The notes under the pieces were generated by a model that worked only from the letters and a program-made list of their open reading frames with translations, did not search any database and was not told the DNA's origin. Made by a program: the position numbers and the translations under genes. Shown here piece by piece: positions 20,431 to 64,000 of a DNA stretch of 64,000 bases. How positions within the stretch are numbered: position 1 is the first letter of the stretch; each line of letters opens with the position of its first letter. Source of the stretch: Actinophytocola algeriensis (GTDB lineage Bacteria; Actinomycetota; Actinomycetes; Mycobacteriales; Pseudonocardiaceae); the NCBI RefSeq assembly GCF_014203735.1, contig NZ_JACHJQ010000002.1, positions 682,001-746,000 on the forward strand, written 5' to 3'.

Positions 20431-20568
20431 CTCGCCTCCCGGTATCGGGACTGGTTGCCGTCAAGATTACCGACCGGCACTGACATTTTCGCGGACCATC
20501 CGGCTGATGATCAGGTTCGCTGTACGCGAACTGTGCTCGATGGCTCGCTCCGCATGCTCCGCTCCCGG

Positions 20569-22077: not shown

Positions 22078-22083
22078 GTCACC

Positions 22084-22089
22084 AGCCTA
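22084..22089 (-). promoter_or_regulatory. -10-like hexamer TAGGCT for dop
   Basis: Minus-strand TAGGCT, then 6 nt, then the dop ATG. It lies in the 23-nt space after the lipoprotein stop. The same hexamer and spacing occur at pafA. Confidence 0.4.
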
Positions 22090-22100
22090 CGGGGACGTAC

Positions 22101-23024: not shown

Positions 23025-23924
23025 TCACGCCCAGGCGAGATCCGAGCGGTGTTTCCAGTAGTCGGCGGGCGCCTCGGCGAGCTCGGGCAGCGCCGCGTGC
23101 GGCACCGACTCCGCCGCGAGGTTGCTCGCGAGCTGGTGGGTGCCCGCCGCGCCGGACAACACGGTGTCGGCCCACGGCTGTGCCAGCACGGCGGCCAGTG
23201 CGACCGCGTCCGGGCCCACGTCCAGGGACTTCGCCAGCGCGGCCACCGGTTCCGGCGGTTCGACCGCGAGCCTGCCGTTGGCCAGCGCCTCCTTGACGAG
23301 CACGTGCGCGCCCGCGGCGTGCGCCTCGGCGAGGGCGGGGCCCGCGGAGGGCTCCAGGAGGTTCCAGGTCGACTGTACCGCGGTGAAGACGGGCTTCCCG
23401 TGGCGTTCCAGCGCCAGCGCCCTGCGCACCACGGACGCCTGCTCGGGGCCGGACGTCGAGAAGCCGACCCGCACCGGCAAGGCCGCCAGCGCGTCCTGCA
23501 GCGCCAGGTCGTCGAACAGCGGGCTGTCCGGGGTCAGCGAGTGCACCTGGTACAGCGCGAGCCGGTCGCCGAGCAGGGCGGTGCTCTCCGTCCACTGCGT
23601 GCGGAACCGGTCGAGCGTGTGGGACTTCTCCTCGTGCACGGCCGCGTCGAGCCGCCAGCCACCCACGTAGGCGTAGCCCCACTTGCTGGACACCGTCACA
23701 CCGGACGGCGCCCTGGAGTCCAGCCAGCCCGCCAGGAACTCCTCAGCCAGCCCGTAGGAGCGGGCCACGTCCACCCAGCGGACACCGGCGGCGTACGCGG
23801 CGTCCAGCACCGCCCACGACGCGTCCCGCATGGCCGCCACAGAACGAGAAGGCGGCAGCTCGGACCGGCCGACGTTGATGTACGCCGGCCGGCCGAGTGC
23901 CGCCAATCCCAGTCCGAGCCGCAC
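23025..23924 (-). CDS. Aldo/keto reductase downstream of mpa
   Basis: A 299-aa NADPH-type oxidoreductase of the AKR (TIM barrel) superfamily. Catalytic residues are visible in order: Asp in RWVDVARSYG with Tyr four residues later, Lys in VSSKWGYAY, and His in LYQVHSLTPD. The N-terminus (MRLGLGLAALGRPAYINVGR) resembles the AKR group that acts on small sugars or aldehydes. GTG 23924 begins immediately after the mpa stop and the lipoprotein follows directly, so all three share a transcript. Substrate unknown. Confidence 0.85.
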   Translation of the reverse strand: MRLGLGLAALGRPAYINVGRSELPPSRSVAAMRDASWAVLDAAYAAGVRWVDVARSYGLAEEFLAGWLDSRAPSGVTVSSKWGYAYVGGWRLDAAVHEEKSHTLDRFRTQWTESTALLGDRLALYQVHSLTPDSPLFDDLALQDALAALPVRVGFSTSGPEQASVVRRALALERHGKPVFTAVQSTWNLLEPSAGPALAEAHAAGAHVLVKEALANGRLAVEPPEPVAALAKSLDVGPDAVALAAVLAQPWADTVLSGAAGTHQLASNLAAESVPHAALPELAEAPADYWKHRSDLAWA

Positions 23925-25739
23925 CTACAGGTACTGCCCCGTGTTCGTCGCCGTGTCGATCGCCCGACCCGACTCCTGGTTCTTCCCCGTGACGAGGGTG
24001 CGGATGTACACGATCCGCTCCCCCTTCTTGCCGGAGATACGCGCCCAGTCGTCCGGGTTCGTGGTGTTCGGCAGGTCCTCGTTCTCCGCGAACTCGTCAA
24101 CGATCGCGTCCAGCAGGTGCTGCACGCGCAGGCCGGGCTGCTTGGTCTCCAGCACCGACTTGATCGCCGCCTTCTTCGCCCGGTCCACGATGTTCTGGAT
24201 CATCGCGCCCGAGTTGAAGTCACGGAAGTACAGGACCTCCTTGTCCCCGTTGGCGTACGTGACCTCGAGGAACCGGTTCTCCTCCGTCTCCTCGTACATG
24301 CGCTCGACGGTGTGCTGGATCATCGCGTCGATCGTGGCCTTCGGGTCCCCGCCGAACTCGGCGAGGTCCTCGGCGTGGATCGGCAGGTTCCGCGTCAGGT
24401 ACTTCGTGAAGATGTCCCGCGCGGCTTCCGCGTCCGGCCGCTCGATCTTGATCTTGACGTCCAGCCGGCCTGGCCGCAGGATCGCCGGGTCGATCATGTC
24501 CTCGCGGTTGGAGGCACCGATCACGATGACGTTCTCGAGGCCCTCGACACCGTCGATCTCGCTGAGCAGCTGCGGCACGATCGTGGTCTCGACGTCCGAG
24601 GAGACACCGCTGCCGCGGGTCCGGAAGATCGAGTCCATCTCGTCGAAGAACACGATGACCGGTGTGCCCTCCGATGCCTTCTCCCGCGCCCGCTGGAAGA
24701 TCAGGCGGATGTGCCGCTCGGTCTCACCGACGAACTTGTTGAGCAGCTCAGGGCCCTTGATGTTGAGGAAGTACGACTTGGCCTCGTGCGCCTTGCCGTC
24801 ACCCCGCGCCGCCGCCACCTGCTTGGCCAGCGAGTTCGCCACCGCCTTCGCGATGAGCGTCTTGCCGCAGCCGGGCGGACCGTAGAGCAGGACGCCCTTC
24901 GGCGGCCGCAGCTCGTACTCGCGGAACAGGTCCGCGTGCAGGAACGGCAGCTCCACCGCGTCGCGGATCTGTTCGATCTGCCGGAACAGGCCACCGATGT
25001 CCTCGTAGCGGACGTCCGGCACCTCCTCCAGCACCAGGTCCTCGACCTCGGCCTTCGGCACCCGCTCGTAGGCGTAGCCCGACTTCGAGTCCACCAGCAG
25101 CGAGTCACCCGGCTTCAGGGGGGCGTCCCGCAACGGGTCGGCGAGCCAGACCACGCGCTCCTCGTCGGCGTGCCCGACCACGAGCGCGCGCATCGGCGGC
25201 GAGTCGTCCGCCTCCGCGAGCAGTTCCCGCAGTGTGGACACCTCGCCGATGCGCTCGAACGAGCCTGCCTCGACGATGGTGAGCGCCTCGTTCAGCCGCA
25301 CGGACTGCCCTCGGCGCAGGTCACCCACCTCGACCGCGGGTGAGCAGGCCACCCGCATCTTCCGGCCTGCCGTGAACACGTCCACGGTGCCGTCCTCGTG
25401 TCCCTGCAGGAACACGCCATAGCCGCTGGGCGGCTGCGCGAGGCGGTCGACCTCCTCCCGGAGCGCGAGGAGCTGACTCCTCGCCTCCCGTAGGGTCTCG
25501 ACCAGCTTGGAGTTACGCTCAGTCAACTGGCTGACCCGCTCCGACGCCTCGGCGAGCCGCTGCTCAAGCAGGCGGGCATGCCGAGGCGAGTCCGTCAGTT
25601 TCCGGCGCAGCAGCGCTACTTCCTCTTCGAGGAACCGGATCTGGGCAGCTTCCGACGGTTCGTGCCCAGAAGCCGCCTCCGGTCCAGCGCCGTGCTCGTC
25701 AGCCTCCTCTGGCCGACCACCGGGACGATCGTGCTGCAT
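23925..25739 (-). CDS. mpa: Proteasomal ATPase Mpa/ARC
   Basis: A 604-aa AAA+ ring ATPase that recognises pupylated proteins, unfolds them and threads them into the 20S core. Domains: N-terminal coiled coil (about 30-105), two OB folds, then the AAA domain with Walker A GPPGCGKT, Walker [13 protein letters not shown] and the arginine-finger region RPGRLDVKI. It ends in GQYL, the tail that docks into the PrcA ring. ATG 25739 is chosen over an upstream frame because GGAGGAGG lies 7 nt before it. It heads the proteasome locus. Confidence 0.97.
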
Positions 25740-48272: not shown

Positions 48273-48644
48273 TCAGAGGCGGACCTGGGTGGTCACCAGG
48301 CGGTCCAGCTCGGCGGCCGGGTCGTCGGTCAGGCCGGTGTGGGCCGGGGACGTCTGCAGGATGGTGCTGCGGGGGGCGGTCAGCCAGCGGAAGCGCTGGC
48401 CGACGCTGGTGCCCGCCATGGGGCCGGTGCCCTCGCAGGCCTGGCACATCGACTGGAGGGCCGCGTCCAGGGTGTCCAGGTCCAGGTCCGGGTCGAGGGC
48501 GCGCAGGCGGTCCCGGTCCACCGCCACCGCGCAGCGCAGAAAACGGAGCTTGGCGCAGTAGACGATCGCGCCCACGTTCATGAACTCGCCGCGTTCCTGG
48601 CGGGGCACGGCGCGTACGAGGGCGTACTCAAACACGTGCGGCAC
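48273..48644 (-). CDS. DUF3037 protein partnered with HipA-like kinase
   Basis: A 123-aa protein of the DUF3037 family: PHVFEYALVRAVPRQERGEF, MNVGAIVYCAKLRFLRCAVA, then a helical DLDTLDAALQSMCQACEG region. GTG 48644 is chosen because GGAGGAG lies 4 nt upstream; it lies inside the kinase gene (17-nt overlap). GTG 48635 is an alternative. The overlapping pair with a HipA-like kinase suggests a two-component module, perhaps regulator and kinase. Function unknown. Confidence 0.78.
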   Translation of the reverse strand: MPHVFEYALVRAVPRQERGEFMNVGAIVYCAKLRFLRCAVAVDRDRLRALDPDLDLDTLDAALQSMCQACEGTGPMAGTSVGQRFRWLTAPRSTILQTSPAHTGLTDDPAAELDRLVTTQVRL

Positions 48645-49413
48645 GGGTCTCCTCCAGTGCGGCGACCCAGTCGGGTGCGTCGGCGAGGCGCGCCGCGAAG
48701 TATGCCGCATAGGCGTCCCGGGCCGCCGCCGGCGACCCCAGCGCCGGGTCCAGCCACTCGTCCGGGACCAGGGACAGGATCTCGCTGATCAGCCTCGGGG
48801 TCACCTGCGGGCGCAGTGCCGCGTCCGCCTCCGCTATCGAGCCTGCCACCGGCATCATCACGTGGTCGGCGGCGTCGTAGCGGTACGTCGGCGCCGGGCG
48901 CCAGCCCGGTTGCCAGCGGTGGTGGAAGATCAGGGCCGCGCCGTGGTCGATCAGCCAGATCTGGCGGTGCCACAGGAGCATGTTCGGGTTGCGCCAGCTG
49001 CGGTCGACGTTGAGGACCAGGGAGTCCAGCCACAGCAGGCGTGCGGCCAGGTCGCTGCCCGGCTCCTTGACGCGCGGGTTGAAGTCGAACGAGCCCGGCA
49101 GGTAGTCCACACCGAGGTTGGTGCCCTGGCTCGCGCGGAGGAGGTCCTGGATCTCCTCGTCCGGCTCCGCACGGGACAGTTCCGGGTCCAGGTCCACGAG
49201 GACCAGCTCCGGCACGCGGAAACCCAACCGCCTAGCCAGTTCGCCGACGATGATCTCCGCCGTCAGCGCCTTCAGGCCCTGGCCGGCGCCGCGGAACTTG
49301 AGTACGTACATGCCGAGGTCGTCCGCCTCGACGAGACCGGGGAGCGACCCGCCCTCCCGGAACGGCGTCACGTAGCGGGTGGCCGCCACGGTACGCAGGC
49401 TGTGCTGATCCAC
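48628..49413 (-). CDS. HipA-like (PI3/4-kinase-fold) protein kinase
   Basis: A 261-aa protein with the catalytic features of HipA-family kinases: Lys39 in GMYVLKFRGAGQG, catalytic loop VLNVDRSWRNPN (Asp137, then Asn) and metal-binding Asp156 in WLIDHGAALIFHH. It is shorter than E. coli HipA (about 440 aa) and lacks the HipA N1 domain. GTG 49413 is the likely start. No HipB-like antitoxin is adjacent; the overlapping DUF3037 gene takes that position. Targets unknown. Confidence 0.82.
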   Translation of the reverse strand: MDQHSLRTVAATRYVTPFREGGSLPGLVEADDLGMYVLKFRGAGQGLKALTAEIIVGELARRLGFRVPELVLVDLDPELSRAEPDEEIQDLLRASQGTNLGVDYLPGSFDFNPRVKEPGSDLAARLLWLDSLVLNVDRSWRNPNMLLWHRQIWLIDHGAALIFHHRWQPGWRPAPTYRYDAADHVMMPVAGSIAEADAALRPQVTPRLISEILSLVPDEWLDPALGSPAAARDAYAAYFAARLADAPDWVAALEETRAARV

Positions 49414-51393: not shown

Positions 51394-52389
51394 CTAGCGG
51401 ATCGCGGCCGCGTGTTGCGGGATCAGGTCCGCGCGGAGGGACTCCTTCAGCTCCGGCATGCCCCGGCCGACGACCACGCCTTCCTTGCCGGTGCGCTGGG
51501 CGTACTCGACCACCCTGCGGTAGTGGTCCAGGTACAGGTTGGGGCGGTCCGGGCGGGTGGTGGGACGTGCCGACCAATGGCGGGTGACCGGCCACCGCGG
51601 GTGGTCGAGGATCGAGATGAACGCCTCCAGCTCGCTCGTGTCCGTGGCGCGGTAGGTGCCCACCAGGACGTCCGGCTGGCGCAGCAGCACCGTCAGGTAG
51701 CCAGTGGTCTGCGGCAGGGGGGACAGCTTCCCCGCGTACTTCTTCTCGTTGTGGCGCAGCACCCGCGCGATCTCCAGCGGGTCCAGCGTGGCGCCGGGAA
51801 CCAGGTCGACCGTGAGCGCCTCGTCGCCGTCCACCGTGCGGATGACCTGCCGCATGTTGTGCCTGCGTTTGCGCTTCATCGACTGCACCCACTCCATGAC
51901 CGACTGCCACGCCGACGTGCGCAGCACGCCCAGTGCCTCGGTCGGGCGGGAGACGCAGCGGCCCATCGCCTCGACCTCGGCCGTCGTCAGCTGGCGCAGC
52001 AGTGCGCCGCCGCAGCCGAGGCCCAGCTCGCGGCGCATGGCGGACGTGTAGTCGCGGAGGAAGTCGGTGACCGGGAGGTCGTTCGCCCACCAGCCGGTGA
52101 CCGAACCGGTGCCGGGGCTGCGCACATGCAGGACACCGACGAGCCTGCCCCGGCCGGTGCCGACGAAACCGTTGCGGCGCACCGGGAGTCCGGCCCAGTT
52201 CGCGAAGACCACGCCGTCCGCGGCCGGGCCGTTGCGCAGCACCGACACGAACAGCGGGACGCGGGACGTCCACGCCTGCGCCGCCAGCACCTCCCACGCC
52301 CAGTCCGCCCGCAGCGCGGCCCTCGCCCGGAGATCCCGCCAGTACGACGGTTCCTCGTCATAGCGCGGGTCGAGCACCTCCCAGCTCAC
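51394..52389 (-). CDS. FemAB/BioF2-like GNAT acyltransferase (first of a pair)
   Basis: A 331-aa protein of the GNAT-like Acetyltransf_6/FemAB group. The recognisable part is the basic helix SMKRKRRHNMRQVIRTVDGD, equivalent to the SRNRRKNVRR block of these enzymes, followed by a second GNAT half (LEIARVLRHNEKKYAGKLSP, then ELEAFISILDHPRWPVTRHW). Family members transfer an acyl or aminoacyl group to an amine. GTG 52389 lies 52 nt after the next paralogue's stop, in the same direction. Substrate unknown. Confidence 0.62.
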   Translation of the reverse strand: MSWEVLDPRYDEEPSYWRDLRARAALRADWAWEVLAAQAWTSRVPLFVSVLRNGPAADGVVFANWAGLPVRRNGFVGTGRGRLVGVLHVRSPGTGSVTGWWANDLPVTDFLRDYTSAMRRELGLGCGGALLRQLTTAEVEAMGRCVSRPTEALGVLRTSAWQSVMEWVQSMKRKRRHNMRQVIRTVDGDEALTVDLVPGATLDPLEIARVLRHNEKKYAGKLSPLPQTTGYLTVLLRQPDVLVGTYRATDTSELEAFISILDHPRWPVTRHWSARPTTRPDRPNLYLDHYRRVVEYAQRTGKEGVVVGRGMPELKESLRADLIPQHAAAIR

Positions 52390-52441
52390 GACTCCCCCTC
52401 GCAGGCACCGGGAAGTCCTCGCATCCGACGGTTCGCTCCGC

Positions 52442-53449
52442 TCATCGGCCCACCAGCGGTCCGGGAACCCCGACCACGCGCATCGGGTACGCGCCGAAAC
52501 CCAGTGACTCCTTCTGCTCGAACTTCGCCCGGCCCGCGGACAACTGCCTGCGGCCGGTCGCGATGACGTGCCGGATCGCGCGGGCGTGGCAGTCGAAGTA
52601 CAGGTGTCCCCGGTCCTCGCGGCTCGCCCAGAACTGGAGCACCGGGGTCACCGGGTGGTCGAGGTACGTGCTGAACGCCACCACCTGACCGTCCACATCG
52701 GAGTAGGTGAGCGTGTGGACGTCGGCACGCCGAACCGCGGCGGCCAGGTACGCGCCGGCGACCGGGGTACGCGGGTCGAACGGCTGCCCGCCGAACTTCG
52801 CGCGGTGCGTGCGGAGCAGACCGGCCAGCACCGTGCCGTCCACATCGGACCTCGCGGCTGCGAACCGGACCGCGAGCGAGGTGTCGGCCGCGATCAGCCG
52901 GTCGATGCGGCGGACGTTCTTGCGGCGGTTGCGGGACAGGCTCGCCAGCCACTCGTCCTCGTCGGCGAACCGGTTCTCCAGCACGGAGGCCGCCGGCGTC
53001 ACCGGGCGGACCAGCCGTCCCCTGCCGGCCACCATGGGCGCGAGCGAGGCCGGTACGTTCCGGTAGACCAGGCCCAACAGCGGCGGTCCCAGGCGGGCCC
53101 GCACCCCTTTCTCCAGCGCACGCACCACCTCCACGTCACCGGACGGGACCACGAACCCCTCGCCACCGAGCCACGGCTGGTACACCTGCGCCACCGTGGG
53201 TGTCAGCCGGTGCGTCCGCGGCGGTGCGTAGTTGTCGCCGCGGCCCGGCACGCACACCATCACGGCCATCGCGCCGACGACCTCGCCGTCCGCGTGTGCC
53301 ACCACCAGCAGCGGCGGGTTGCGGGACAGCCAGGCCTCGACGCCCATCAGCGCGTAGTCCCACGGCGCGTGGAGGTGGTGCCGAGCGACGAAACCGGACC
53401 AACCGGTCGGTGGGGGGTCGTGGCGGGGGTCGTGGACGGTCACGTTCAC
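52442..53449 (-). CDS. FemAB/BioF2-like GNAT acyltransferase (second of a pair)
   Basis: A 335-aa protein with the Acetyltransf_6 layout: two GNAT halves, the central basic helix SLSRNRRKNVRRIDRLIA, LLRTHRAKFGGQPFDPRTPV, a strand pair DVDGQVVAFSTYLDHP and the closing SAGRAKFEQKESLGFGAYPM. Such proteins N-acylate sugars or amino acids or add amino acids to cell-wall precursors. GTG 53449 overlaps the stop of the PaaK-like gene by 4 nt (GTGA), so both are co-translated. Confidence 0.72.
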   Translation of the reverse strand: MNVTVHDPRHDPPPTGWSGFVARHHLHAPWDYALMGVEAWLSRNPPLLVVAHADGEVVGAMAVMVCVPGRGDNYAPPRTHRLTPTVAQVYQPWLGGEGFVVPSGDVEVVRALEKGVRARLGPPLLGLVYRNVPASLAPMVAGRGRLVRPVTPAASVLENRFADEDEWLASLSRNRRKNVRRIDRLIAADTSLAVRFAAARSDVDGTVLAGLLRTHRAKFGGQPFDPRTPVAGAYLAAAVRRADVHTLTYSDVDGQVVAFSTYLDHPVTPVLQFWASREDRGHLYFDCHARAIRHVIATGRRQLSAGRAKFEQKESLGFGAYPMRVVGVPGPLVGR

Positions 53450-54297
53450 GGCAGCACCACCGGTGTCCCGTGCCGGGGGCAGCGGCCGAGCGCGGCCGAC
53501 CCGACCAGGATGTCGACGAGACACGGCGACCGTTGCGTCAGCAGGGTGACCGCGAGCCCGGCGTCGGTCTCCCGTGCGTACACGCGCCGCCAGTCCAGGT
53601 GCCATCGGCCGCATTGTCGCAACGCGCCAAGATATCCCAGCAGTGAATCGTGGAGAAGGCCGTGCGGACCACTGTCCAGCTCGTCCACCGTCCTCTTGGG
53701 AATAGCGTCGAGCCGGATCGCGAGGTCCTCCGGCAATTCCGCCACCAGTGCCGCGAGCTCCTTGTCGGCGCCGACGGCGAGCACCGGCATCGCACGTCCC
53801 AACGCGACGGTCAGTGCGCGCCACGCGCTCTCGGCGGGACCCGCGCTCAGGTCGAGGACGCAGCCGGTCACACCGCGTGGCAGATCATGTGGCGGCAATA
53901 CATCCGGTTTGTCCAGAACTACCACGAGTCCCGTGCCACGGAACGAGAAGCGGGCGTCGAGCGCCGGACCGAGCCCGCGGAGCGTTTCGACCAACGCCGT
54001 ACCGCCCTCCAGCGGAACGAGGTCGACCAAGCGGCGCAACGCCTCGGCCTTCTGAATCGCTCCACTGTGTACACCCGGCCGCCCGGGCACCACCACGGGG
54101 TCCGTGCGACCCGACAGCGCCCACCGTTCCCGGTAGAGCGGGACAGTGCGAAACGCGGAGGCCACCTTTCGCCGGTAAGCCATCCACCACCAGGGCTCGA
54201 TGTTCACGAGCCGGGAGTGTGCCACCCGTTTGCCTGCCCCGGCTCGCGGGTGCGATTCTGCGGCCGAACGCCCTAGCACCCCACACCTCCCACTCAT
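53446..54297 (-). CDS. Uncharacterised protein, PaaK-like in its N- and C-terminal parts
   Basis: A protein of up to 283 aa. I do not recognise the family with certainty. AYRRKVASAFRTVPLYRERW resembles the opening of phenylacetate-CoA-ligase-like adenylating enzymes, and HDSLLGYLGALRQCGRWHLD followed by WRRVYARETDAGLAVTLLTQ resembles their C-terminal end, but no ATP-binding P-loop is visible and the length is about two thirds of the family's. It may be a degenerate or minimal adenylate-forming protein. Start uncertain: ATG 54297, GTG 54207 and ATG 54183 are open and none has a strong ribosome-binding site. It heads the leftward block. Confidence 0.5.
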   Translation of the reverse strand: MSGRCGVLGRSAAESHPRAGAGKRVAHSRLVNIEPWWWMAYRRKVASAFRTVPLYRERWALSGRTDPVVVPGRPGVHSGAIQKAEALRRLVDLVPLEGGTALVETLRGLGPALDARFSFRGTGLVVVLDKPDVLPPHDLPRGVTGCVLDLSAGPAESAWRALTVALGRAMPVLAVGADKELAALVAELPEDLAIRLDAIPKRTVDELDSGPHGLLHDSLLGYLGALRQCGRWHLDWRRVYARETDAGLAVTLLTQRSPCLVDILVGSAALGRCPRHGTPVVLP

Positions 54298-54412
54298 CTG
54301 AACGGACGAATTACGTAGCGCTCACTGCCCATTACACGTTTCGCCTGCTAGGAAATGCGGCGTGCCACCACCCAAGGCACTTCGACAGTGGGACGGGATC
54401 GGAGATCCATCG

Positions 54413-55372
54413 ATGAAGGTTGGCGTCACGGGGGGTAACGGTTTCATCGGCCGTTATGTCTGCGAGGAGCTCATCAGCAGAGGTCACGAGCCGCTCGTGT
54501 TCGACCACTACGGTCGAACCGCAGGTCAGGACCATGCCGTGATGCTGGGCGACATCAGGGACGCGACGGCGATGGTGGAGCTCGCCGCGCACTGCGACGG
54601 CATCATCCACCTCGCGGCCGTGCTCGGCACCCAGGAGACGATCCGCAATCCGCGGCCGGCCGCGGAAACGAATCTGATCGGCGGCCTGAATTTCCTCGAG
54701 GCCGTCGCACAATATGATCTTCCTGGCGTGAACATCGCCGTCGGCAATCATTGGATGAACAACAGCTATTCGATCTCCAAGTCGGCCGTCGAGCGTTTTG
54801 TGCACATGTTCAACGCCGACCGGGGAACACGCGTGAACAATGTCCGCGTGGTCAACGCGTACGGCCCGAGGCAGCTCGCCGCCGCGCCGTTCGGCTCCGG
54901 CAAGGTGCGCAAGATAACCCCCGCCGTCATCTGCCGCGCACTCGCGGGGTGGCCTGTCGAACTGTACGGCGGCGGCCGCCAGATCTCCGACATGGTGTGG
55001 GTCGGCGACGTCGCCCGCGCGCTCGTGTCCGCGCTCGAGGTCGCCGCGCGCGGCGAGGTGCTCGACCGTGTCGTCGAGGTCGGGCCGCTGGAGTCGACGA
55101 GCATCCGGTCGGTCGCCGAGCTGATCATCGAGCTGTGCGTGGCACGCGGCTACTCCCCCGTGCCCGTCGAGGACCTGCCGATGCGGCCGGGTGAGCAGGC
55201 GGGCGCGGTCGTCACCGCCGACCCGGAGACGCTGCACGCGGTCGGCATCGACCCGGTCTCGCTGGTGTCGCTGCGCGAGGGCATGGCCCGCACGGTCGAC
55301 TGGTTCATCGAGCACGAGGGCATCCACTGGTCGGTCCCGGAAGGCGAACAGCTCGTCCGCACGGCCAACTAG
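54413..55372 (+). CDS. NAD-dependent sugar epimerase/dehydratase (extended SDR)
   Basis: A 319-aa Rossmann protein acting on nucleotide sugars. The NAD motif is GVTGGNGFIGRY (4-15), the catalytic pair Tyr119 and Lys123 is in NSYSISKSAVERF, and VNAYGPRQLAAAP is the substrate-binding stretch typical of UDP/dTDP-sugar epimerases. Near the end LESTSIRSVAELIIELC fits a UDP-glucose 4-epimerase-like group. ATG 54413 is chosen: it matches the fold start and follows GGAG at 8 nt. It is the first gene of the rightward glycoconjugate operon; the GT2 follows 10 nt later. Confidence 0.87.
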   Translation: MKVGVTGGNGFIGRYVCEELISRGHEPLVFDHYGRTAGQDHAVMLGDIRDATAMVELAAHCDGIIHLAAVLGTQETIRNPRPAAETNLIGGLNFLEAVAQYDLPGVNIAVGNHWMNNSYSISKSAVERFVHMFNADRGTRVNNVRVVNAYGPRQLAAAPFGSGKVRKITPAVICRALAGWPVELYGGGRQISDMVWVGDVARALVSALEVAARGEVLDRVVEVGPLESTSIRSVAELIIELCVARGYSPVPVEDLPMRPGEQAGAVVTADPETLHAVGIDPVSLVSLREGMARTVDWFIEHEGIHWSVPEGEQLVRTAN

Positions 55373-55382
55373 GGCGGCACGC

Positions 55383-56348
55383 ATGTCCGGTCCGGTCAGC
55401 ACGGGTATGACCGCGGTTGTGCCCTGTTTCAACGAGGCCGACAACGTCGAGCACGCGTACCGCGAGATCGTCACCGAACTCGGTGAGCACGACCTCGAGG
55501 TGCTGTTCGTCGACGACGGCAGCTCTGACGGCACGCTGGAGAAGGTGCGCGCACTCGCGCGCACCGACCCGCGCGTGCAGTACCTGTCGTTCACCCGCAA
55601 CTTCGGCTTCGAGGCGGCGTTCTCGGCCGGCTACCGGTACGCGAGCAGGTCGTGGATCCTGCACATCGACGCGGACGTGCAGTTTCCGGTGGCCGAGGCG
55701 CACAAACTCGTCGCGGCCGCGGAAGCCGGCCAGGACGCGGTGTTCGGCGTGCGCGAGACCAGGCACGACCCGCTGGTGCGGCGGGTCGGCGCGCGGTTCT
55801 ACCACTTCGTCGCCCGGCGGGTGCTCGGCATCGAGATCCCACCCGGCGCGACGACGTTCCGGCTCGTGCGTGCCGAACTGGCCCGCGCGATCGTGGACCT
55901 GCGCCTCGGCACGCCGTACTTCCTCGCCACCGTCCCCCGGCTGACCAACCGGTACTCGACGGTGCCGGTGGCGCACCGGGCACGGCAGCGCGGCGGGTCC
56001 AAGCTGCACTTCCGCTGGCTGGTCGGGCACGCGATGGGACTGTTCGTGGGTTTCTCCAACCGGATGGCGGCGGCCGCGTCGCTGCTCGCGTTGTTCGCGG
56101 CGGCGGTCACCGGGCTCGGCGCGGTCGGTGCCGCGGTCGGTCTACTGAGGACGGACGTGGTCACGACCGTGGTGCTGGGCGCGTTGCTCGCCGTGCTCAC
56201 CGTGCTGGCGGTCTCGGTCCGCTACCTCGTCGCCGTCGGTGCCGGACAGGCGAGACCAGCGTTGTTCTACGTCCGGGAGGCGACCATGCCGGTCGCCCCG
56301 GCGGACCGGCTGATGACCGAACAGCTCGGCGAGGAGGTCCGCTCGTGA
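55383..56348 (+). CDS. GT2 glycosyltransferase (polyprenyl-phosphate type, GtrB/Dpm1-like)
   Basis: A 321-aa GT-A enzyme. Nucleotide-binding residues are in VVPCFNEADN and FVDDGSSDG (42-50), the metal-binding DAD is at 96-98 (HIDADVQFP), and QRGGSKLHFRWLV is the acceptor-site motif of GtrB-type enzymes. Two C-terminal transmembrane helices (AASLLALFAAAVTGLGAVGA and VVTTVVLGALLAVLTVLAVS) anchor it. It would transfer a sugar to undecaprenyl or decaprenyl phosphate, making a lipid-linked donor. It overlaps the first ATP-grasp gene by GTGA. Confidence 0.86.
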   Translation: MSGPVSTGMTAVVPCFNEADNVEHAYREIVTELGEHDLEVLFVDDGSSDGTLEKVRALARTDPRVQYLSFTRNFGFEAAFSAGYRYASRSWILHIDADVQFPVAEAHKLVAAAEAGQDAVFGVRETRHDPLVRRVGARFYHFVARRVLGIEIPPGATTFRLVRAELARAIVDLRLGTPYFLATVPRLTNRYSTVPVAHRARQRGGSKLHFRWLVGHAMGLFVGFSNRMAAAASLLALFAAAVTGLGAVGAAVGLLRTDVVTTVVLGALLAVLTVLAVSVRYLVAVGAGQARPALFYVREATMPVAPADRLMTEQLGEEVRS

Positions 56349-57541
56349 CGTCACTGGTGGTCCTCGGCGCGGCCGACGGCGCGGTGCCGACCTACCAGCG
56401 GGCCGCGAAACTCGGTTACCGCACGATCTGCGTGGACATCCAGCCGGGCGCGCCGGGTGTGCCGTTCGCCGACGAGTACCTGCACATCAGCACGCGCGCG
56501 CCGGAACAGGTCGCCGCCGCGTTGGCAGGCCGCACGGACATCGTCGGCGTCCTCGCGCCCGCGAGCGACATCGCGTTGCCGTCCCAGCGCTGGCTCGCGA
56601 GGCACTGGGACCTGCCGGACCCGATCTCCGAGCAGGCCGTGCTGGCGTCGGCGGACAAGTCCGTGTTCCGGGAGGTGTGTGAGCGGCTCGGGTTCCCCGT
56701 CTACGGCGCGGTCGCGGGCACCGTCGGGTCGGGACTGCGGGAAGCCGCGCTGGGACTGCGGTTCCCGACGCTCGTGAAACCCGTGGACAGCACCGGCAGC
56801 CGCGGTGTGGTGCCGTGCGGTGAGCCGGGTGGGCTGACGGCCGCGATCCGGGCCGCGATCGAACACTCGCCGTCCGGCCGGGTGGTCGTCGAGGAGCACG
56901 TCACCGGCGAGCACCTGACCGTCGAGGCGGTCGTGTCCTCGGGCCGGGTCCTGTTCCACGCGGTGAGCGCGCGCACGCTGACCGCGCCGCCGTACTTCAT
57001 CACCGCCGAGCAGCTGTTGCCCGCGGACCTGCCGCCGGAGGTCGACCGCAGGCTCGTCACCATGCTCGACAAGCTGTGCGCCGAGCTGGGGTACGTCAGC
57101 GGGCCGCTGAACCTGGACGTGGTGCTCGCGCCGGACGGACAGCTGTACTTCGTCGAGATGGGTGCGCGGACCGGCGGGAACGGGCTCGCCGAGCTGATCG
57201 AGACGATGTGCGGCGTCGACACCCTGTCGGCGACGATCGCGCTGGCGGTCGGCGACCGGGTGGTGCTCGCGCCACGCCCGCCCCGGCCCGTGATGCTGCG
57301 GGTCATCGCAGCGGACCGGCCGGGCACCCTCGCGGCCGTCCACGGGATCCGGCAGGTCACGGCGTTGCCCGAGGTCGTGGACCTGCGGCTGTTCGCGCAG
57401 CCGGGTGACCACGTGCGGCCGTACACACAGGCCGCGCACAAGGTCGGGTACGTGGTGCTGTCGGCGGCGACCGCCAGCCGGCTGCGGGCCGCGGCCGCGG
57501 TGGTGGACCGGACGTTGCGGGTCGAGTTGGCCGGCCCATGA
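56345..57541 (+). CDS. ATP-grasp ligase 1
   Basis: A 398-aa ATP-grasp enzyme: N-terminal Rossmann-like part (SLVVLGAADGAVPTYQRAAK), central ATP-binding lysine and loop (FPTLVKPVDSTGSRGVVPCG, VVVEEHVTGEHLTVEAVVSS) and metal-binding end (LNLDVVLAPDGQLYFVEMGA followed by RTGGNG). It belongs to the carbamoyl-phosphate synthase/PylC-like group that forms amide bonds via acyl phosphates. It is a clear paralogue of the gene at 61238. The GTG overlaps the GT2 stop and its own stop overlaps the flippase (ATGA). Substrates unknown. Confidence 0.83.
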   Translation: MTSLVVLGAADGAVPTYQRAAKLGYRTICVDIQPGAPGVPFADEYLHISTRAPEQVAAALAGRTDIVGVLAPASDIALPSQRWLARHWDLPDPISEQAVLASADKSVFREVCERLGFPVYGAVAGTVGSGLREAALGLRFPTLVKPVDSTGSRGVVPCGEPGGLTAAIRAAIEHSPSGRVVVEEHVTGEHLTVEAVVSSGRVLFHAVSARTLTAPPYFITAEQLLPADLPPEVDRRLVTMLDKLCAELGYVSGPLNLDVVLAPDGQLYFVEMGARTGGNGLAELIETMCGVDTLSATIALAVGDRVVLAPRPPRPVMLRVIAADRPGTLAAVHGIRQVTALPEVVDLRLFAQPGDHVRPYTQAAHKVGYVVLSAATASRLRAAAAVVDRTLRVELAGP

Positions 57542-58782
57542 CCATCGCGTCCACGGCACCGCCCCGGCTGTCGGTGATGGTGCGCCTCGCGGCGGGCCGC
57601 GGGGTGTTCCGGCTGGCGAGCCAGCTGATGGCGGTGGCGCTGGCCGTGGTGTGGGGTGCCGAGTCGTTCGGCCGCTTCGCCAACGCCATGGGGTTGTGCG
57701 CGTGGCTGCTGTTCGTGCCGACGGCGGCGGAGAAGGCCGCGCTGAAGGTGTTGCCGCGCATGCGTTTCCTCACCGCGCAGGTGGCGCGGCTGGTGGTCCG
57801 GCTCGCGGCGGCACCGGTGCTGGCGCTGGTCGCGGCGTTCGCCGTGGCACTGCTCGTCGATCCACAGGGGACGGTCACGCTCTACCTCGTCACGGCGGCG
57901 TGGTCGGCGGCCACCGGGCTGCTGATGACCGTGTCCGGGCTGCAACGCCTGCGTGGCAGGCCGATGCTGGACGCGGCCGCGTTCGGCGCGATGACCGCGG
58001 TGGTGCTCGCCGGGACGGCGGTGACGTGGGTGGCGGGCTGGTCGCCGACCACCCACCTGTCGCTGCTGCTCGCCGGCCTGCTCGCGGTCACCGGCTACTC
58101 CCTGGCGGCACTCCCCCGCGACTGGGTGCTCGGCGTGCGGAGCGGGCGGCGGCTGCTGCCCGCGCTGGGCCGCAGCACCTGGCTGCTCGGCCTGTCCGAA
58201 CTGCTCGACGTCGCCGCACTGTCCACTGTGTACCTGGTGCTGGCGCTCACCGGGCAGACCACCGACAGCGGCCCGCTGTACCTCGCGGTGCTGGTGGCGA
58301 GCATGGCAGGCTCGCTCGTGCTGTACCAGTTGAAGCTCTACCAGCCCGCGACGTCGGCCCGGCTGCGTGGCGCGGGCGGCGCGGGTGGCCGGGCGCGGAC
58401 GTTCCGGCTGCTCCGGACCGCGGAGCGCGGCGGGTTCGCGTTCGCGGCGGTCGTGGCCGTGCTGGTCGCCTTCCCCGCGGGCCGGGACCTCCTGGCCACC
58501 GGGTCCTACGTCGTGCTCGGCGCGGTCCTCGCCGTCGAGGTCGCGGTGTCCACCCTGGTCATGTACGCGAACTTCCTGCTGGAGAACACGAACAGCAGCG
58601 TGCTCACGATCACCTCGGTCTCGGCCGTCGTCGGCCTGGTCGCCACCGCGCTGATCGCGCTCGCCGTCGTGCCGTGGCTCGGCGCGGCGGGCGGGCTCAC
58701 CGCGCTCGTCCTCGCCGCCGCCGTCAAGGCAGGCACCCTGCGCGGGCTGCTGCTGCGCAGGCACCCGGAACTCCATCCGTAA
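57538..58782 (+). CDS. Wzx-like flippase (MATE/MOP superfamily)
   Basis: A 414-aa protein with about 12 hydrophobic helices and few charged loops. The start, AGRGVFRLASQLMAVALAVV, followed by WGAESFGRFANAMGLCAWLL, is typical of polysaccharide flippases (LxxExxGxxxxA). Such proteins move lipid-linked glycans across the membrane. It overlaps ATP-grasp 1 by 4 nt. Its place directly after the GT2 and ATP-grasp genes suggests that it exports their product. Confidence 0.82.
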   Translation: MTIASTAPPRLSVMVRLAAGRGVFRLASQLMAVALAVVWGAESFGRFANAMGLCAWLLFVPTAAEKAALKVLPRMRFLTAQVARLVVRLAAAPVLALVAAFAVALLVDPQGTVTLYLVTAAWSAATGLLMTVSGLQRLRGRPMLDAAAFGAMTAVVLAGTAVTWVAGWSPTTHLSLLLAGLLAVTGYSLAALPRDWVLGVRSGRRLLPALGRSTWLLGLSELLDVAALSTVYLVLALTGQTTDSGPLYLAVLVASMAGSLVLYQLKLYQPATSARLRGAGGAGGRARTFRLLRTAERGGFAFAAVVAVLVAFPAGRDLLATGSYVVLGAVLAVEVAVSTLVMYANFLLENTNSSVLTITSVSAVVGLVATALIALAVVPWLGAAGGLTALVLAAAVKAGTLRGLLLRRHPELHP

Positions 58783-58806
58783 CACGAGAAGAACAGCGGA
58801 GCCACC

Positions 58807-60594
58807 ATGTACGTACTCGGTATCAGCCGCCACCACGACGCCGCCGCGGCGCTGGTGCGCGACGGCGAGATCATCGCCTTCGCCGAGCAGGAGCGGTTCA
58901 GCAGGGTCAAGCACGACGGCCGCTTCCCCACCGACGCCATCCGGTTCTGCCTGGAGCGGGCCGGCATCACGCTGTCCGAAGTGGACCACGTGGCGTACTT
59001 CTGGCAGCGCTGGCGCGAGCCGCTGCACGCGGCGAAGGTGTTCGCCCGGTACTTCCCCGCCACGCTCGAGGTGTTCCGCAACCAGGGCGACCAGGGCGCG
59101 AAGGCGTCCGGGTTGGTCGAGACGTTCCGGCACGGCGGCAAGGGTGTCGACAACTTCCACGTCGGCGGCGCGGTCCTCGGCCACGTCAAGCGCGGCTACA
59201 CCCTCGGCCGCGACGTGCGGGAGGCGCTCGGGTTCACGGGGCCGACCAGGTACAAGGTCCACCTGATCGACCACCACCGCGCGCACGCGGCGAGCGCGTT
59301 CTTCATCTCGCCGTGGGACGAGGCCGCGATCCTGACTCTCGACGGCATCGGCAGCGACGGCACCAGCACGTTCCTCGCGGTCGGCAAGGGCGACAGGATC
59401 ACCGACCTGCGACGGTTCAAGTTCCCGCATTCGCTGGGCGCGATGTACGCGGGCGTCACGAACTACCTCGGCTTCTACCCGACCATGGACGAGGGCAAGG
59501 TGATGGGCCTCGCCCCGTTCGGCAAGGACACCTACATCGAGCAGTTCAAGGACCTGGTGTACCTCGAGGACGACGGCGGGTACGAGCTGAACCTCGACTG
59601 GTTCCGCCACCACACGTCCGGCCGCCACCTCATGTCGGACAGGTTCATCGACACCTTCGGCCCGCCGCGCGAGCGCACGAAGGTCACCGCCGACAACCCG
59701 ATCCCCCAGCACTACATGGACATCGCGTACGCACTGCAGGTGCGCCTCGAGGAGGTCGGCCTCCACCTCGCGCGGTGGCTGCACCAGAAGACCGGGCTCA
59801 CCAAGCTGTGCGTGGCGGGCGGTGTCGCGCTGAACTCGGTGATGAACGGGCGGATCTTCCTGGAGACGCCGTTCGAGGACTTCTTCGCGCAGCCCGCGGC
59901 CGCCGACGACGGCTCGTCGCTGGGCGCCGCGCTCGCGGTCAGCGTCGGGAAGTACGGCAGGCCCCGGCCCACGGACGGGTACATGTACACCGGCCCGGAG
60001 TTCACCGAGGCGCAGATGGAGCAGGCGCTGCAGGACGCGGGCGTCCAGTACCAGCGCGTCGACGACATCGCGGCGCACACCGCGGCGCGCGTCGCGGACG
60101 GGCTGATCGTGGGCTGGTTCCAGGGTCGCATGGAGTGCGGGCCGCGGGCCCTCGGCAACCGGACGCTGCTCGCCGACCCACGCGACCCCGACTCCAAGAC
60201 CCGGATGAACGAGAAGGTCAAGCACCGCGAGGCGTTCCGGCCGTTCGCGCCGTCGTGCCTGGCCGAGAAGGCAGGCGAGTACTTCGCGAGCGGCTACCCG
60301 TCCGCGGTGATGCTGCTGGTGTTCGACGTGCTCGAGGACAAGCGGGACGTGGTGCCCGCGATCACGCACGTGGACGGCACCGCCCGCGTGCAGACCGTGA
60401 GCCGGGACGACAACCCGCGGTACTGGGACATGATCTCGCACTTCGAGCAGCTCACCGGCGTCCCGATGGTCCTCAACACGTCGTTCAACGACAACAACGA
60501 ACCGATCGTGTGCACGCCGGAGGACGCGATCAACTGTTTCCGCAAGACCGACGTGGACGCGCTCGCCCTTGGCCCGTTCTGGGTGGAGAAGTGA
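58807..60594 (+). CDS. NodU/CmcH-family O-carbamoyltransferase
   Basis: A 595-aa enzyme that transfers carbamoyl from carbamoyl phosphate to a hydroxyl group. The ASKHA/Kae1-like N-terminal part (ISRHHDAAAALVRDGEIIAF, EQERFSRVKHDGRFPTDAI) has the metal-binding HHRAHAASAFF; LTKLCVAGGVALNSVMNGRI closes that fold. The C-terminal YrdC-like domain carries the signature FQGRMECGPRALGNRTLLAD. Full length for the family. ATG 58807 follows GCGGAG. Relatives decorate Nod factors, cephalosporins and novobiocin; here the sugar of a glycoconjugate is the likely acceptor. Confidence 0.93.
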   Translation: MYVLGISRHHDAAAALVRDGEIIAFAEQERFSRVKHDGRFPTDAIRFCLERAGITLSEVDHVAYFWQRWREPLHAAKVFARYFPATLEVFRNQGDQGAKASGLVETFRHGGKGVDNFHVGGAVLGHVKRGYTLGRDVREALGFTGPTRYKVHLIDHHRAHAASAFFISPWDEAAILTLDGIGSDGTSTFLAVGKGDRITDLRRFKFPHSLGAMYAGVTNYLGFYPTMDEGKVMGLAPFGKDTYIEQFKDLVYLEDDGGYELNLDWFRHHTSGRHLMSDRFIDTFGPPRERTKVTADNPIPQHYMDIAYALQVRLEEVGLHLARWLHQKTGLTKLCVAGGVALNSVMNGRIFLETPFEDFFAQPAAADDGSSLGAALAVSVGKYGRPRPTDGYMYTGPEFTEAQMEQALQDAGVQYQRVDDIAAHTAARVADGLIVGWFQGRMECGPRALGNRTLLADPRDPDSKTRMNEKVKHREAFRPFAPSCLAEKAGEYFASGYPSAVMLLVFDVLEDKRDVVPAITHVDGTARVQTVSRDDNPRYWDMISHFEQLTGVPMVLNTSFNDNNEPIVCTPEDAINCFRKTDVDALALGPFWVEK

Positions 60595-61241
60595 CGGCGG
60601 CGCTCTATTCGGCCCGCCGGTGGCTGTGGCTCGCCGCCGCGGTCCCGGCGGCGGTGCTGGCCGGGCTGATCATGGTGGTGCTGCCGCCGGACCAGACGCT
60701 CGACAACCTCGCGGAGTGGCTGTTCAAGCTGAGCCCGTTCCTGTTCGCGGTGGCCGCGGTCGCGGTGTTCCCGCGCGGCCGGTTCGGGCCCGCACTGGTC
60801 GTGGTCGGCGTGCTGGCCTACATGGGATACCTGGACACGGCGCTGATCCTGCGGATCCTGGACTACCGCGCCGACGGCGAGTTCTCGGTGGTGTACCAGT
60901 TCCAGCTGTTCGTGGTCACCTACATCGTCCTCTTCGGACTGCTCGCGTTCCGGCTCGGCGGCGCGCGCACCGCGACCGTGCTGAAGGTCGGCGTCGCCGG
61001 GGTGCTGATCGTGATCTCCGGGTTGAACGACCTCGGGTTCTGGGTCATGAACGACTGGGGCGCCGACGGCCGCCCGTCCACACTGGACTGGGCGTCGCAC
61101 ATCATCGTGTTCACCGGCGGCCCGCCCAGTGTCCCGGGCGCGACGGTGTTCCTGGTGGTGCACCTGGTCCTGGCGGCCGCGGTGGTGACGGCGCCCGTGG
61201 AGCGCTGGGTGGACAGACGGCTGGCCAGGACGACACCGTGA
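60591..61241 (+). CDS. Polytopic membrane protein of the glycoconjugate operon
   Basis: A 216-aa protein with about six hydrophobic segments (WLWLAAAVPAAVLAGLIMVV, FLFAVAAVAVFPRGRFG, ALVVVGVLAYMGYLDTALIL, FVVTYIVLFGLLAFRLGG, VGVAGVLIVISGLNDLGFWV, VFLVVHLVLAAAVVTAPVE). I do not recognise the family. Conserved-looking polar stretches (LNDLGFWVMNDWGADG, DWASHI) between helices could form an active site. It overlaps its neighbours by GTGA at both ends, so it is part of the pathway. Confidence 0.72.
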   Translation: MTAALYSARRWLWLAAAVPAAVLAGLIMVVLPPDQTLDNLAEWLFKLSPFLFAVAAVAVFPRGRFGPALVVVGVLAYMGYLDTALILRILDYRADGEFSVVYQFQLFVVTYIVLFGLLAFRLGGARTATVLKVGVAGVLIVISGLNDLGFWVMNDWGADGRPSTLDWASHIIVFTGGPPSVPGATVFLVVHLVLAAAVVTAPVERWVDRRLARTTP

Positions 61242-62449
61242 AGGCGCTGGTGGTCCTGGGTGCGGCCGACGGTTCGCTGTCGACCTACCGGACCGCCCGC
61301 GCGCTCGGCTACCGCACGATCTGCGTCGACCGGTCGCCGGCCGCGCCCGGGGTGGCGCTCGCCGACGAGTTCCTGCCGCTGTCCACACGCGACACGGAGG
61401 CGATCGCGGCCGCGCTGGCCGGCCGCGACGACCTGGCGGGCGCGCTCGCCCCGTCCACCGACATCGCGCTGCCGACGCTGCTCGCGCTGACCGAACGGCT
61501 CGGGCTGCCGGTCACGATGACGCGGGAGGCGGCCCGCGCGTCGCTGGACAAGCGGCACTTCCGGCGTGTCTGCGAGGAGCTGGGCTTCCCGGCATATCGT
61601 TGGAGCGAGATCACCGACGCGGCGCAGTGGGAGTGGCGCGGCCCCGCCGTGGTGAAGCCGGTCGACGCGCAGAGCGGCCGCGGGGTCACGCGCTGCGTCG
61701 AGAAGTCCATGGTGGACGCCGCGGTCGCCGCGGCACGCGACCTCTCCTACAGCGGCGGTGTCGTGGTCGAGGACGAGGTACCTGGCACGCACTGTGGGTG
61801 CGAGTGCGTGATCTCCGGCGGCGAGGTGGCGTTCCTCGCGCTCACCACGCGCACGCTGTGCCCGCCGCCGCGAGCCGTCACGACCGCGCACCTGATGCCC
61901 TCGGAGGTCCCCGCCGAGGCGCGGCGCGCGGTGGTGACGATGGTCGAGCGGCTCTGCGCGCGACTGCGGTACCGGACCGGCCCGCTGAACCTGGACCTCG
62001 TCGTCGACCGGGACGGCGTGCCGTACCTGATCGAGATGGGCGCGCGGACCAGCGGGAACGGGCTCGACGAGCTGACGTTGCGCTGCCACGGCGTGGACAC
62101 GATCGCCGCCTCGGTGGCGGCGGCCGTGTACGAGCCGATGACGGTCACCCAGCACCCGCCGCGGCCGGCGCTGTGGCAGTCGCTGTCGAGCGACCACGCG
62201 GGCAGGCTCACCGCCGTCCACGGGCTGACCGAGGCGCTGGCGATGCCGGAGGTGGTGGACGTGCGGTTGTTCGCCGGGCCCGGCGACGAGGTCCGCGGGC
62301 ACGACAACGTGGCGGACAAGCTGGGGTACGCGGTGCTGAGCGCGCCGACCACGGCCGGGCTGCGTGCCGCCGCCGAGCGCCTGAACCGGACGCTCGTGTT
62401 CGAGGTGGCGCCGGTGAGCCCGGCGGCGCGAGGAAGGCGAGAGAGCTAG
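61238..62449 (+). CDS. ATP-grasp ligase 2
   Basis: A 403-aa paralogue of the ligase at 56345. The openings nearly match (KALVVLGAADGSLSTYRTAR, LGYRTICVD), as do the ends (LNLDLVVDRDGVPYLIEMGA followed by RTSGNG). The ATP-binding part is VVKPVDAQSGRGVTRC and VVVEDEVPGTHCGCECVISG. Different central residues suggest a different substrate. It likely adds a second group to the same molecule. GTG 61238 overlaps the membrane-protein stop. It is the last gene of the operon. Confidence 0.83.
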   Translation: MKALVVLGAADGSLSTYRTARALGYRTICVDRSPAAPGVALADEFLPLSTRDTEAIAAALAGRDDLAGALAPSTDIALPTLLALTERLGLPVTMTREAARASLDKRHFRRVCEELGFPAYRWSEITDAAQWEWRGPAVVKPVDAQSGRGVTRCVEKSMVDAAVAAARDLSYSGGVVVEDEVPGTHCGCECVISGGEVAFLALTTRTLCPPPRAVTTAHLMPSEVPAEARRAVVTMVERLCARLRYRTGPLNLDLVVDRDGVPYLIEMGARTSGNGLDELTLRCHGVDTIAASVAAAVYEPMTVTQHPPRPALWQSLSSDHAGRLTAVHGLTEALAMPEVVDVRLFAGPGDEVRGHDNVADKLGYAVLSAPTTAGLRAAAERLNRTLVFEVAPVSPAARGRRES

Positions 62450-62514: not shown

Positions 62515-64000
62515 TCACGCGGGCACCAACTGGTTTAGCGTGCCCAGGTCCAGCACCCGCGACCCCTCCGGCAGCCCGTCCGGACGGGTCAGCCCGACGT
62601 AGGTCACCGGCTCGGTCAGCACCAGGTCCGGCGTCCACGTGGTGACCGGGCCGGGCAGCAGGCCGAGCAGGTCGGAGACCATCAGGTACCGCCGCTCGAC
62701 GACCGCGCGGGTCAGCATGCCCGTGGTCAAGCGGTTGTTCTCGACCTGGTTGAAGTTGGGCGAACCGGTCAGGTACAGGTGGGTCCACAGCACCGACCAC
62801 CGCCCGGCCGCGTCCCGGCTGAACACCGCGGGCAGCGCGACCCGGCCGGTGCCGCGCAGGTCCGACCGCGTGCGCACGGTCCGCGCCTCGAAGGGTGCGC
62901 CCTTCTGCGCGCGGTCCCGCACCATCCAGCCGAACATCGACTCGGCGACCGTGTCGAACCCCTCGCCCGCGTAGACGTTCACCTGCGGCACGATCCGCGT
63001 CGCCCCGACCTTGTCGAGTGGCACGTCGATGAACTCGGTCGCGCCGTTCGCCGACTCGGTCAGGTCACCGGAGTACACGACCTCGCCGTCTCGCAGGTTG
63101 GTCCACGACACGTGGCCGCGGTAGCGGAAGTCGTCGTCCAGCAGCAACGCGGACAGGTCGTAGTCGGTGCGCCGCGCCTGCTCCCGCCAGTAGGCGAAGA
63201 ACCGCAGCACCTCACCGTCCACGACGGACCACGAGCCGCGCGGCAGCACCGCGAAGCCGTCCTCGGCCGCCTTGCCGGACAACGGCACCGCGACGGTCAG
63301 CACGGCCGGGTCGACGACGACCGGGCCGAACCCGGACAGCCGGGCGGCCAGCTCGGTGTCGACGATCCCGCGGACCCGGTCGATCACGTCGACCGGCAGC
63401 GGCAGCCGCGCGTCCACGGTGACCCACGCCCGCTTCGCCCGGCCCGCGAACACCCGCGCACTGTCCACACCGGACCGGTTGGCGACGTGCTCCCGCAGCG
63501 AGCACAGGACCCGCCCGGACACCTCACCCACCACGGACTCGAACCCGGTCAGCACCGCGCCGGTGTCGGTCGCCGTGCGCAGCAGCCGGTCCAGCGAACG
63601 CACCAGCATGCCCGGCGCCTTCGCGAGGATCCCGGCGGCGTCGGCCACCCGGCCCGCGCGGAAGGCGAACTCCGCGCGGCCCGCGATGGACCGCACGACC
63701 CGGTCGCCGCGCGCCACGTCGAACACCTCCCGCGCACGGACGAAGCGGTCGTCCTCGTACGGGTGCAGCCCCGCCGCGAGGCGCTTCCACACCTCGGCGT
63801 GCCGCGCGACGTCCCCGAGCTTGCCCTCGTTCGCCGACACGACCGCGTCGAGCGCGCCGAGCAGCACCCGCCGCTCGCTCCTGCGGAACGACCGGAACCG
63901 GGTCGGCGTCGCCAGCGTCACGTCACCACCGCTCGCCCGGCACGCGACCCGCAGCACGTCGACCACCGTGTCGACGGCGACGAGCGGCAGGCCGTGCGCG
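62515..64000 (-). CDS. TerD-like protein of the MXAN_6230/SCO0854 type, 5' part outside window
   Basis: At least 495 codons are open to the window edge with no start needed inside. The visible sequence (HGLPLVAVDTVVDVLRVACR, CRASGGDVTLATPTRFRSFR, then SERRVLLGALDAVVSANEGK) and the TerD-like C-terminal part (AYWREQARRTDYDLSALLLD, DDFRYRGHVSWTNLRDGEVV) match the large proteins called MXAN_6230/SCO0854 family, which carry an N-terminal RING-like zinc motif. That part would lie beyond 64000. Function unknown, with a tellurite/stress-type TerD link. It converges on the glycoconjugate operon. Confidence 0.75.
   Translation of the reverse strand, partial: AHGLPLVAVDTVVDVLRVACRASGGDVTLATPTRFRSFRRSERRVLLGALDAVVSANEGKLGDVARHAEVWKRLAAGLHPYEDDRFVRAREVFDVARGDRVVRSIAGRAEFAFRAGRVADAAGILAKAPGMLVRSLDRLLRTATDTGAVLTGFESVVGEVSGRVLCSLREHVANRSGVDSARVFAGRAKRAWVTVDARLPLPVDVIDRVRGIVDTELAARLSGFGPVVVDPAVLTVAVPLSGKAAEDGFAVLPRGSWSVVDGEVLRFFAYWREQARRTDYDLSALLLDDDFRYRGHVSWTNLRDGEVVYSGDLTESANGATEFIDVPLDKVGATRIVPQVNVYAGEGFDTVAESMFGWMVRDRAQKGAPFEARTVRTRSDLRGTGRVALPAVFSRDAAGRWSVLWTHLYLTGSPNFNQVENNRLTTGMLTRAVVERRYLMVSDLLGLLPGPVTTWTPDLVLTEPVTYVGLTRPDGLPEGSRVLDLGTLNQLVPA

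Follow-up and report, generated by a model that had tools for sequence, protein, structure and literature searches.

A 64,000-nt stretch of the Actinophytocola algeriensis genome (contig NZ_JACHJQ010000002.1, positions 682,001 to 746,000; hereafter the window, from a genome of 9.7 Mb) carries a ten-gene set, spanning about 11 kb, that combines a family 2 glycosyltransferase (GT2) with a predicted O-carbamoyltransferase, FemABX-like proteins, ATP-grasp ligases and membrane proteins. The set is linked beyond chance in relatives, staying largely intact across many actinobacteria from soil, and we consider it an even call that it specifies a pathway dedicated to the envelope or to export, akin to the PpgS and Arn lipid-linked-sugar routes.

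Organization of the block

The block consists of a rightward operon (54413 to 62449) and a leftward block (54183 to 51394), and all ten genes are open, with no internal stops. A sequence-only reading of the window had described a tightly packed operon with 4-nt overlaps at five of its six joints. The tight packing holds, but the overlaps number four (GT2/ATP-grasp 1, ATP-grasp 1/MOP-like, carbamoyltransferase/membrane protein and membrane protein/ATP-grasp 2), the remaining two joints being 10-nt and 24-nt gaps. In the leftward block, one joint overlaps by 4 nt and the other is a 52-nt gap. The earlier family calls for the epimerase, GT2, both ATP-grasps and the carbamoyltransferase were confirmed, all over curated Pfam cut-offs; in the same scan the MOP-like protein, a 216-amino-acid (aa) membrane protein, the FemABX-like protein F1 and a small 245-aa protein had no match over cut-off.

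Linkage of the gene set in relatives

The named genomes were scanned once with the 216-aa membrane-protein family, giving 35 loci. Removal of duplicates (L021, L026, L035, L042, L050) and addition of the window and L012–L017 gave a 37-locus set, which was scanned in six frames. The membrane protein, as the selection criterion, is present in all 37; the carbamoyltransferase is also present in 37, FemAB-like proteins in 36, an ATP-grasp in 35, GT2 and the MOP-like protein in 34 each and the small protein in 31, with epimerase-family matches in 5 and UDP (uridine diphosphate)-galactopyranose mutase and full PaaK-like proteins in 4 each. GT2, ATP-grasp, MOP-like, carbamoyltransferase and membrane-protein genes are colinear, in this order, in 29 loci, with the small-protein and FemAB-like genes diverging from them. 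Since 29 of 37 loci are colinear while flanking genes are mostly unshared among the loci whose flanks were compared across genera, the linkage is more than chance; the flanks of Amycolatopsis loci, judged by gene size, are often alike. FemAB-like genes number two to four per block, and several loci terminate within them. In six loci (L049, L051, L052, L053, L054, L055) the set is rearranged or incomplete.

The loci come from Pseudonocardiaceae, Streptosporangiaceae (Nonomuraea, Acrocarpospora, Sphaerisporangium), Kribbellaceae and two bins, labelled Actinomycetes bacterium and Herpetosiphonaceae; the families of the remaining listed genera are those to which we take them to belong. In the Herpetosiphonaceae (Chloroflexi) bin (L054:1-14271), a carbamoyltransferase with 64% identity and a membrane protein with 45% identity lie beside FemAB-like and PaaK-like genes, reflecting either inter-phylum transfer or bin contamination.

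Of the 390 genomes of the family, 56 have the membrane protein and 56 the ATP-grasp, and the two genome sets are identical. The carbamoyltransferase (E 1e-200 or better) is present in 47, where its distance is always −10 to 71 bp to the membrane protein and either 29 or 1263–1403 bp to the ATP-grasp. Scattering of these genes in relatives, named beforehand by the sequence-only reading as grounds for refutation, was thus not seen. A second class comprises ten additional loci, found in G035, G049 and eight other genomes from genus g45; their genomes have no carbamoyltransferase at E 1e-200, except G049, whose match is its other cluster, and none is present in the five of these ten loci that were inspected. 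Searches of open-access PMC literature, which falls well short of everything published, turned up no described cluster with this gene set.

Carbamoyltransferase and its membrane-protein partner

The carbamoyltransferase (58807..60594, + strand; 595 aa) has both Pfam domains of its family (PF02543, Carbam_trans_N, 210.1 bits; PF16861, Carbam_trans_C, 239.9 bits; cut-offs 24 and 27), and its PDB matches are NovN, GdmN and TobZ (best 4.7e-98). The HH..H motif, which we presume to have its usual role in NodU/CmcH O-carbamoyltransferases, is invariant (H156, H157, H160) in 11/11 aligned rows, from the window through the Chloroflexi bin. By domains and motif, the enzyme is predicted to be an O-carbamoyltransferase of the NodU/CmcH type, sharing both features with NodU, CmcH, TobZ, GdmN and NovN; unlike them, it adjoins an unclassified membrane protein. 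That protein (60591..61241, +; 216 aa, six hydrophobic segments) has no PDB profile match, and its predicted structure (pLDDT 86) lacks a convincing fold match. It is a constant partner of the carbamoyltransferase, adjoining it in each of the 37 loci, a set selected on the membrane protein, and in each of the 47 family genomes identified through the enzyme.

A third context, in which a protein distantly related to this membrane protein adjoins a GT2, accounts for 9 of 15 loci in one scan (L097–L100, L102–L104, L108, L109). In L098, the one such locus scanned, CofD-like, HAD, nucleotidyltransferase, GT4, Wzx and GT4 genes follow. These clusters look like another glycolipid or polysaccharide cluster.

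Amino acid attachment

The two FemABX-like proteins are F1 (51394..52389, −; 331 aa), the most distal of the leftward block, and F2 (52442..53449, −; 335 aa), which is 28% identical to F1. Both had been called Acetyltransf_6/FemAB-like. For F2 this holds, as Acetyltransf_6 scores 26.3 bits (cut-off 22), with FemAB_like at 25.3 under its cut-off of 27; F1 has no Pfam hit, yet its predicted structure is FemX-like. The predicted fold is the double-GNAT fold of FemX and MprF, a lysine near the active site of the C-terminal GNAT domain (Lys315, matched to FemX Lys305 from the aligned ranges) is invariant in 135/135 aligned rows, and the nearest folds include Sba18/Sbb17 with streptothrisamine. The two-GNAT-domain fold, the conserved C-terminal lysine and the usual presence of several paralogues per cluster recall FemABX, MprF/A-PGS and BD-12 Orf11/Sba18; identity to the solved structures is only 8–14%, however, and the acceptor here is probably a lipid-linked sugar.

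Both ATP-grasp ligases (ligase 1, 56345..57541, +, 398 aa; ligase 2, 61238..62449, +, 403 aa) match ATP-grasp_4 and LAL_C2 over cut-off and are 50% identical to each other. Ligase 1 has profile matches to PDB 4dim and 3vot (3vot E 1.2e-38). The two domains are shared with L-amino acid ligases of the BL00235 type (PDB 3vot); unlike these, the ligases here sit in a membrane-sugar operon. The sequence-only reading stressed paired ATP-grasps, but although one is present in 35 of the 37 loci, ligase 2, a paralogue of ligase 1, occurs in the operon of only two, the window and L017, and is optional. That reading also assigned amide formation to these ligases. Parts for an amide- or ester-modified sugar are present, but amino acid attachment is probably transfer RNA (tRNA)-dependent and carried out by the FemABX-like proteins, with the ATP-grasps as a second route. 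In two sister clusters containing FemAB, GT2 and ATP-grasp genes, an extra class I lysyl-tRNA synthetase paralogue adjoins a FemAB-like gene (L095:1992-3404, L096:1439-2980).

Sugar transfer and supply

The GT2 (55383..56348, +; 321 aa; PF00535), which is of the GtrB/ArnC/PgfS type, has two hydrophobic segments within residues 234–277, in agreement with the two C-terminal helices first described, and thus the GT2 domain plus two C-terminal hydrophobic helices characteristic of its family. The upstream gene (54413..55372, +; 319 aa) encodes an NAD (nicotinamide adenine dinucleotide)-dependent sugar epimerase-like short-chain dehydrogenase/reductase (PF01370, 123.9 bits) whose top PDB relative is the UDP-glucose 4-epimerase 4zrm (8e-22). 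It is an optional member of the set, carried by the window, L012 and, as a fragment, L051; two of the five epimerase-family matches are distant copies in a second module.

UDP-galactopyranose mutase lies within clusters L049, L052 and L055 (by Pfam) and L053 (by hidden Markov model), and in the genomes of L049, L052 and L055 the cluster mutase is the sole copy. Each of eight searched Pseudonocardiaceae cluster genomes (one of which, G035, has only the second class) has one copy, off-cluster. As a base rate, the mutase is present in 31 of 150 genomes of the family of G431; the strong type of the membrane protein is present in three of the 150, with a mutase within 5 kb in all, although these three are again the L052, L053 and L055 genomes, and the weak type alone is present in 18, one with a weak mutase match. 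Galactofuranose (Galf) is well supported as the sugar of the Streptosporangiaceae versions and plausible for the window cluster.

Putative flippase, small protein and neighboring genes

The MOP-like polytopic membrane protein (57538..58782, +; 414 aa), a putative flippase, has nine hydrophobic segments by simple hydropathy. Compared by hhalign with an untidy Wzx alignment, it gave E 5e-6 over 256 columns, against 0.15–0.87 for other families.

The small protein (53446..54183, −, alternative start 54297; 245 aa) contains CxxxH and CxxH motifs whose residues (C191, H195, C235, H238) are invariant in 30/30 rows and in an 11-row alignment; it has no PDB profile match. It had been labeled PaaK-like, which we could not confirm: none of the 11 members scanned had an AMP-binding hit at E 1, and the protein is only 245 aa long. 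Profile comparison with the full PaaK-like proteins of sister clusters gave E 0.0059, against 0.16–0.64 for unrelated families, and the small protein may be distantly related to them. In sister cluster L095 (5550-7613), a PaaK-like protein with AMP-binding under the Pfam cut-off is fused to a HalD-type halogenase domain (PF23169).

Beyond the operon, a frame of at least 494 aa (62515-63999, −), with no Pfam hit, extends past the window; its counterpart in L020 is called as 680 aa. Upstream of the island lies a Pup-proteasome locus (17067-25526), with two Pup_ligase proteins and a proteasomal ATPase. A gene for a HipA-like kinase domain protein (48628-49413, −) stands ahead of an MFS/HxlR gene pair. 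A conserved gene of ~180 aa borders three clusters (L012:5326-5874, L016:18414-18953, L017:820-1353), with no Pfam match in the one member scanned.

Discussion

How might these proteins work together? In the pathway that we favor, the GT2 would load one sugar onto polyprenyl phosphate; this would be galactofuranose where the cluster has UDP-galactopyranose mutase, and otherwise a sugar supplied either by housekeeping UDP-Galf or through the local epimerase. The sugar would be carbamoylated by the carbamoyltransferase and aminoacylated, once or several times, by the FemABX-like proteins with aminoacyl-tRNA as donor, while the ATP-grasp ligase(s) would form a further amide. The product would be flipped by the MOP-like protein, with the 216-aa membrane protein as partner, and the decorated sugar handed to a wall polymer or released. 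We infer the polyprenyl phosphate acceptor, the order of steps, the identity of the amino acid, flipping and the final destination. The earlier proposal of a lipid-linked, carbamoylated, amide-modified and flipped sugar thus keeps the linked set with the needed parts, with its acceptor, flipping step and product still conditional. A fuller version, which we hold only tentatively, is that polyprenyl-phosphate-linked sugars (Galf in some lineages) are carbamoylated, given a short amino acid chain, built residue by residue from aminoacyl-tRNA by mostly two to four FemABX-like enzymes, and flipped as a building block in Pseudonocardiaceae, Streptosporangiaceae, Kribbellaceae and, on one binned contig, perhaps Chloroflexi.

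Two known routes are close. In the Arn (Ara4N) and GtrB three-component systems, an ArnC/GtrB-type GT2 with C-terminal membrane helices makes a lipid-linked monosaccharide that is flipped. The block resembles them in its GT2 and, as proposed, in the lipid-linked monosaccharide and flipping; unlike them, it has no ArnT/GT-C gene among its ten and would add carbamoyl and amino acid decorations. For the PpgS route of Mycobacterium tuberculosis and Corynebacterium glutamicum, an epimerase, a GT2, a helper and a final transferase have been described; its flippase has yet to be identified (PMC9671496). The likeness to this arabinogalactan galactosamine pathway (PpgS/Rv3632/Rv3634c/Rv3779) lies in the UDP-sugar epimerase, proposed polyprenyl-phosphate GT2, accessory protein, unidentified flipping step and proposed wall decoration (PMC9671496). 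Unlike it, the block links carbamoyltransferase, FemABX-like and ATP-grasp genes, has no Rv3779-like transferase among its ten genes, and has a GT2 to which the PpgS model gives just 28 bits (cut-off 370).

Several findings weigh against the proposed pathway. Because no GT-C glycosyltransferase or polymerase is present among the ten genes, where alone an Rv3779-like GT-C was sought, the final transfer is unexplained. The GT2 falls far below the cut-off of every named equivalog listed (PgfS 117.8/500, ArnC 78.8/529, PpgS 28.2/370 bits) and is therefore not filed as any of the three. Galactofuranose is not general and sugar supply varies, since the window, L012 and L051 (a fragment, in place of the mutase) hold an epimerase, and the genomes of L036, L051 and L054 have no UDP-galactopyranose mutase. 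As for the flippase, 0/8 members match a Pfam MOP family, so the sequence-only call survives only as MOP-like, with weak Wzx similarity. Against a cleaned Wzx alignment, hhalign gave E 0.0024 over 47 N-terminal columns only (reversed control 0.14), suggesting that the assignment is weak and depends on the alignment chosen. L016 has no MOP-like gene, and L036 has the carbamoyltransferase and membrane protein alone. The counts are not independent and are inflated by relatedness, as 31 of the 47 carbamoyltransferase genomes are of a single genus. Relatives of the lysyl-tRNA synthetase of the sister clusters are present in 0/37 loci, and a search of the home genome found no class I lysyl-tRNA synthetase.

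Could the block instead make a small molecule for secretion? It is somewhat unlikely that its product is a natural product such as a streptothricin- or BD-12-like sugar bearing aminoacyl and carbamoyl groups, or a phosphoglycolipid resembling moenomycin, with the GT2 and membrane proteins used to assemble and export it. A FemX-type enzyme that acts on a sugar is known in BD-12 Orf11 (PMC12945691), and this idea also draws on the streptothrisamine-bound Sba18/Sbb17 folds, the antibiotic enzymes NovN, GdmN and TobZ among the carbamoyltransferase relatives, the halogenase fusion in L095 and a patchy distribution (56/390 genomes). However, the window's ten genes include no resistance gene, regulator or tailoring oxidase, and the very constant order across genera (29/37) fits an envelope function equally or better. 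In addition, a review that covers the metabolites of Amycolatopsis through 2021 does not contain the word glycolipid, and has "carbamoyl" only within a naphthoquinone name (PMC8037709).

It is unlikely that the FemABX-like proteins are GNATs using acyl-CoA or an acyl carrier, such that the sugar is acylated instead of aminoacylated. Less likely still is that the block belongs, as a fragment, to the synthesis of an ordinary capsule or exopolysaccharide, in which the sugar would be one unit of the polymer and other glycosyltransferases would be encoded elsewhere. This would accord with the third-context clusters, which pair the distant membrane-protein relative with a GT2 and, in L098, add two GT4s and a Wzx over cut-off, and with the FemAB-like and PaaK-like genes (AMP-binding under cut-off or absent) found together in L052, L053, L054 and L055. 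However, the window's ten genes include only a single glycosyltransferase, with none for polymerization, chain length or priming, most relatives have no further called gene within the block, and flanks mostly differ among the genera compared.

If the lipid-linked-sugar pathway is correct, MprF/FemX chemistry would be joined to a PpgS/Arn-type route in a previously undescribed envelope modification, and three families without Pfam matches in our scans (the MOP-like proteins, the 216-aa membrane proteins and the small proteins with CxxxH and CxxH motifs) would gain a setting. With all ten genes inside about 11 kb, a simple genetic test would be possible. The pathway would unite tRNA-dependent aminoacylation, carbamoylation and lipid-linked sugar export in one route, in a family studied for its antibiotics, and many Amycolatopsis, Prauserella and Saccharomonospora, and some Actinophytocola, would make an unknown surface or secreted glycoconjugate.
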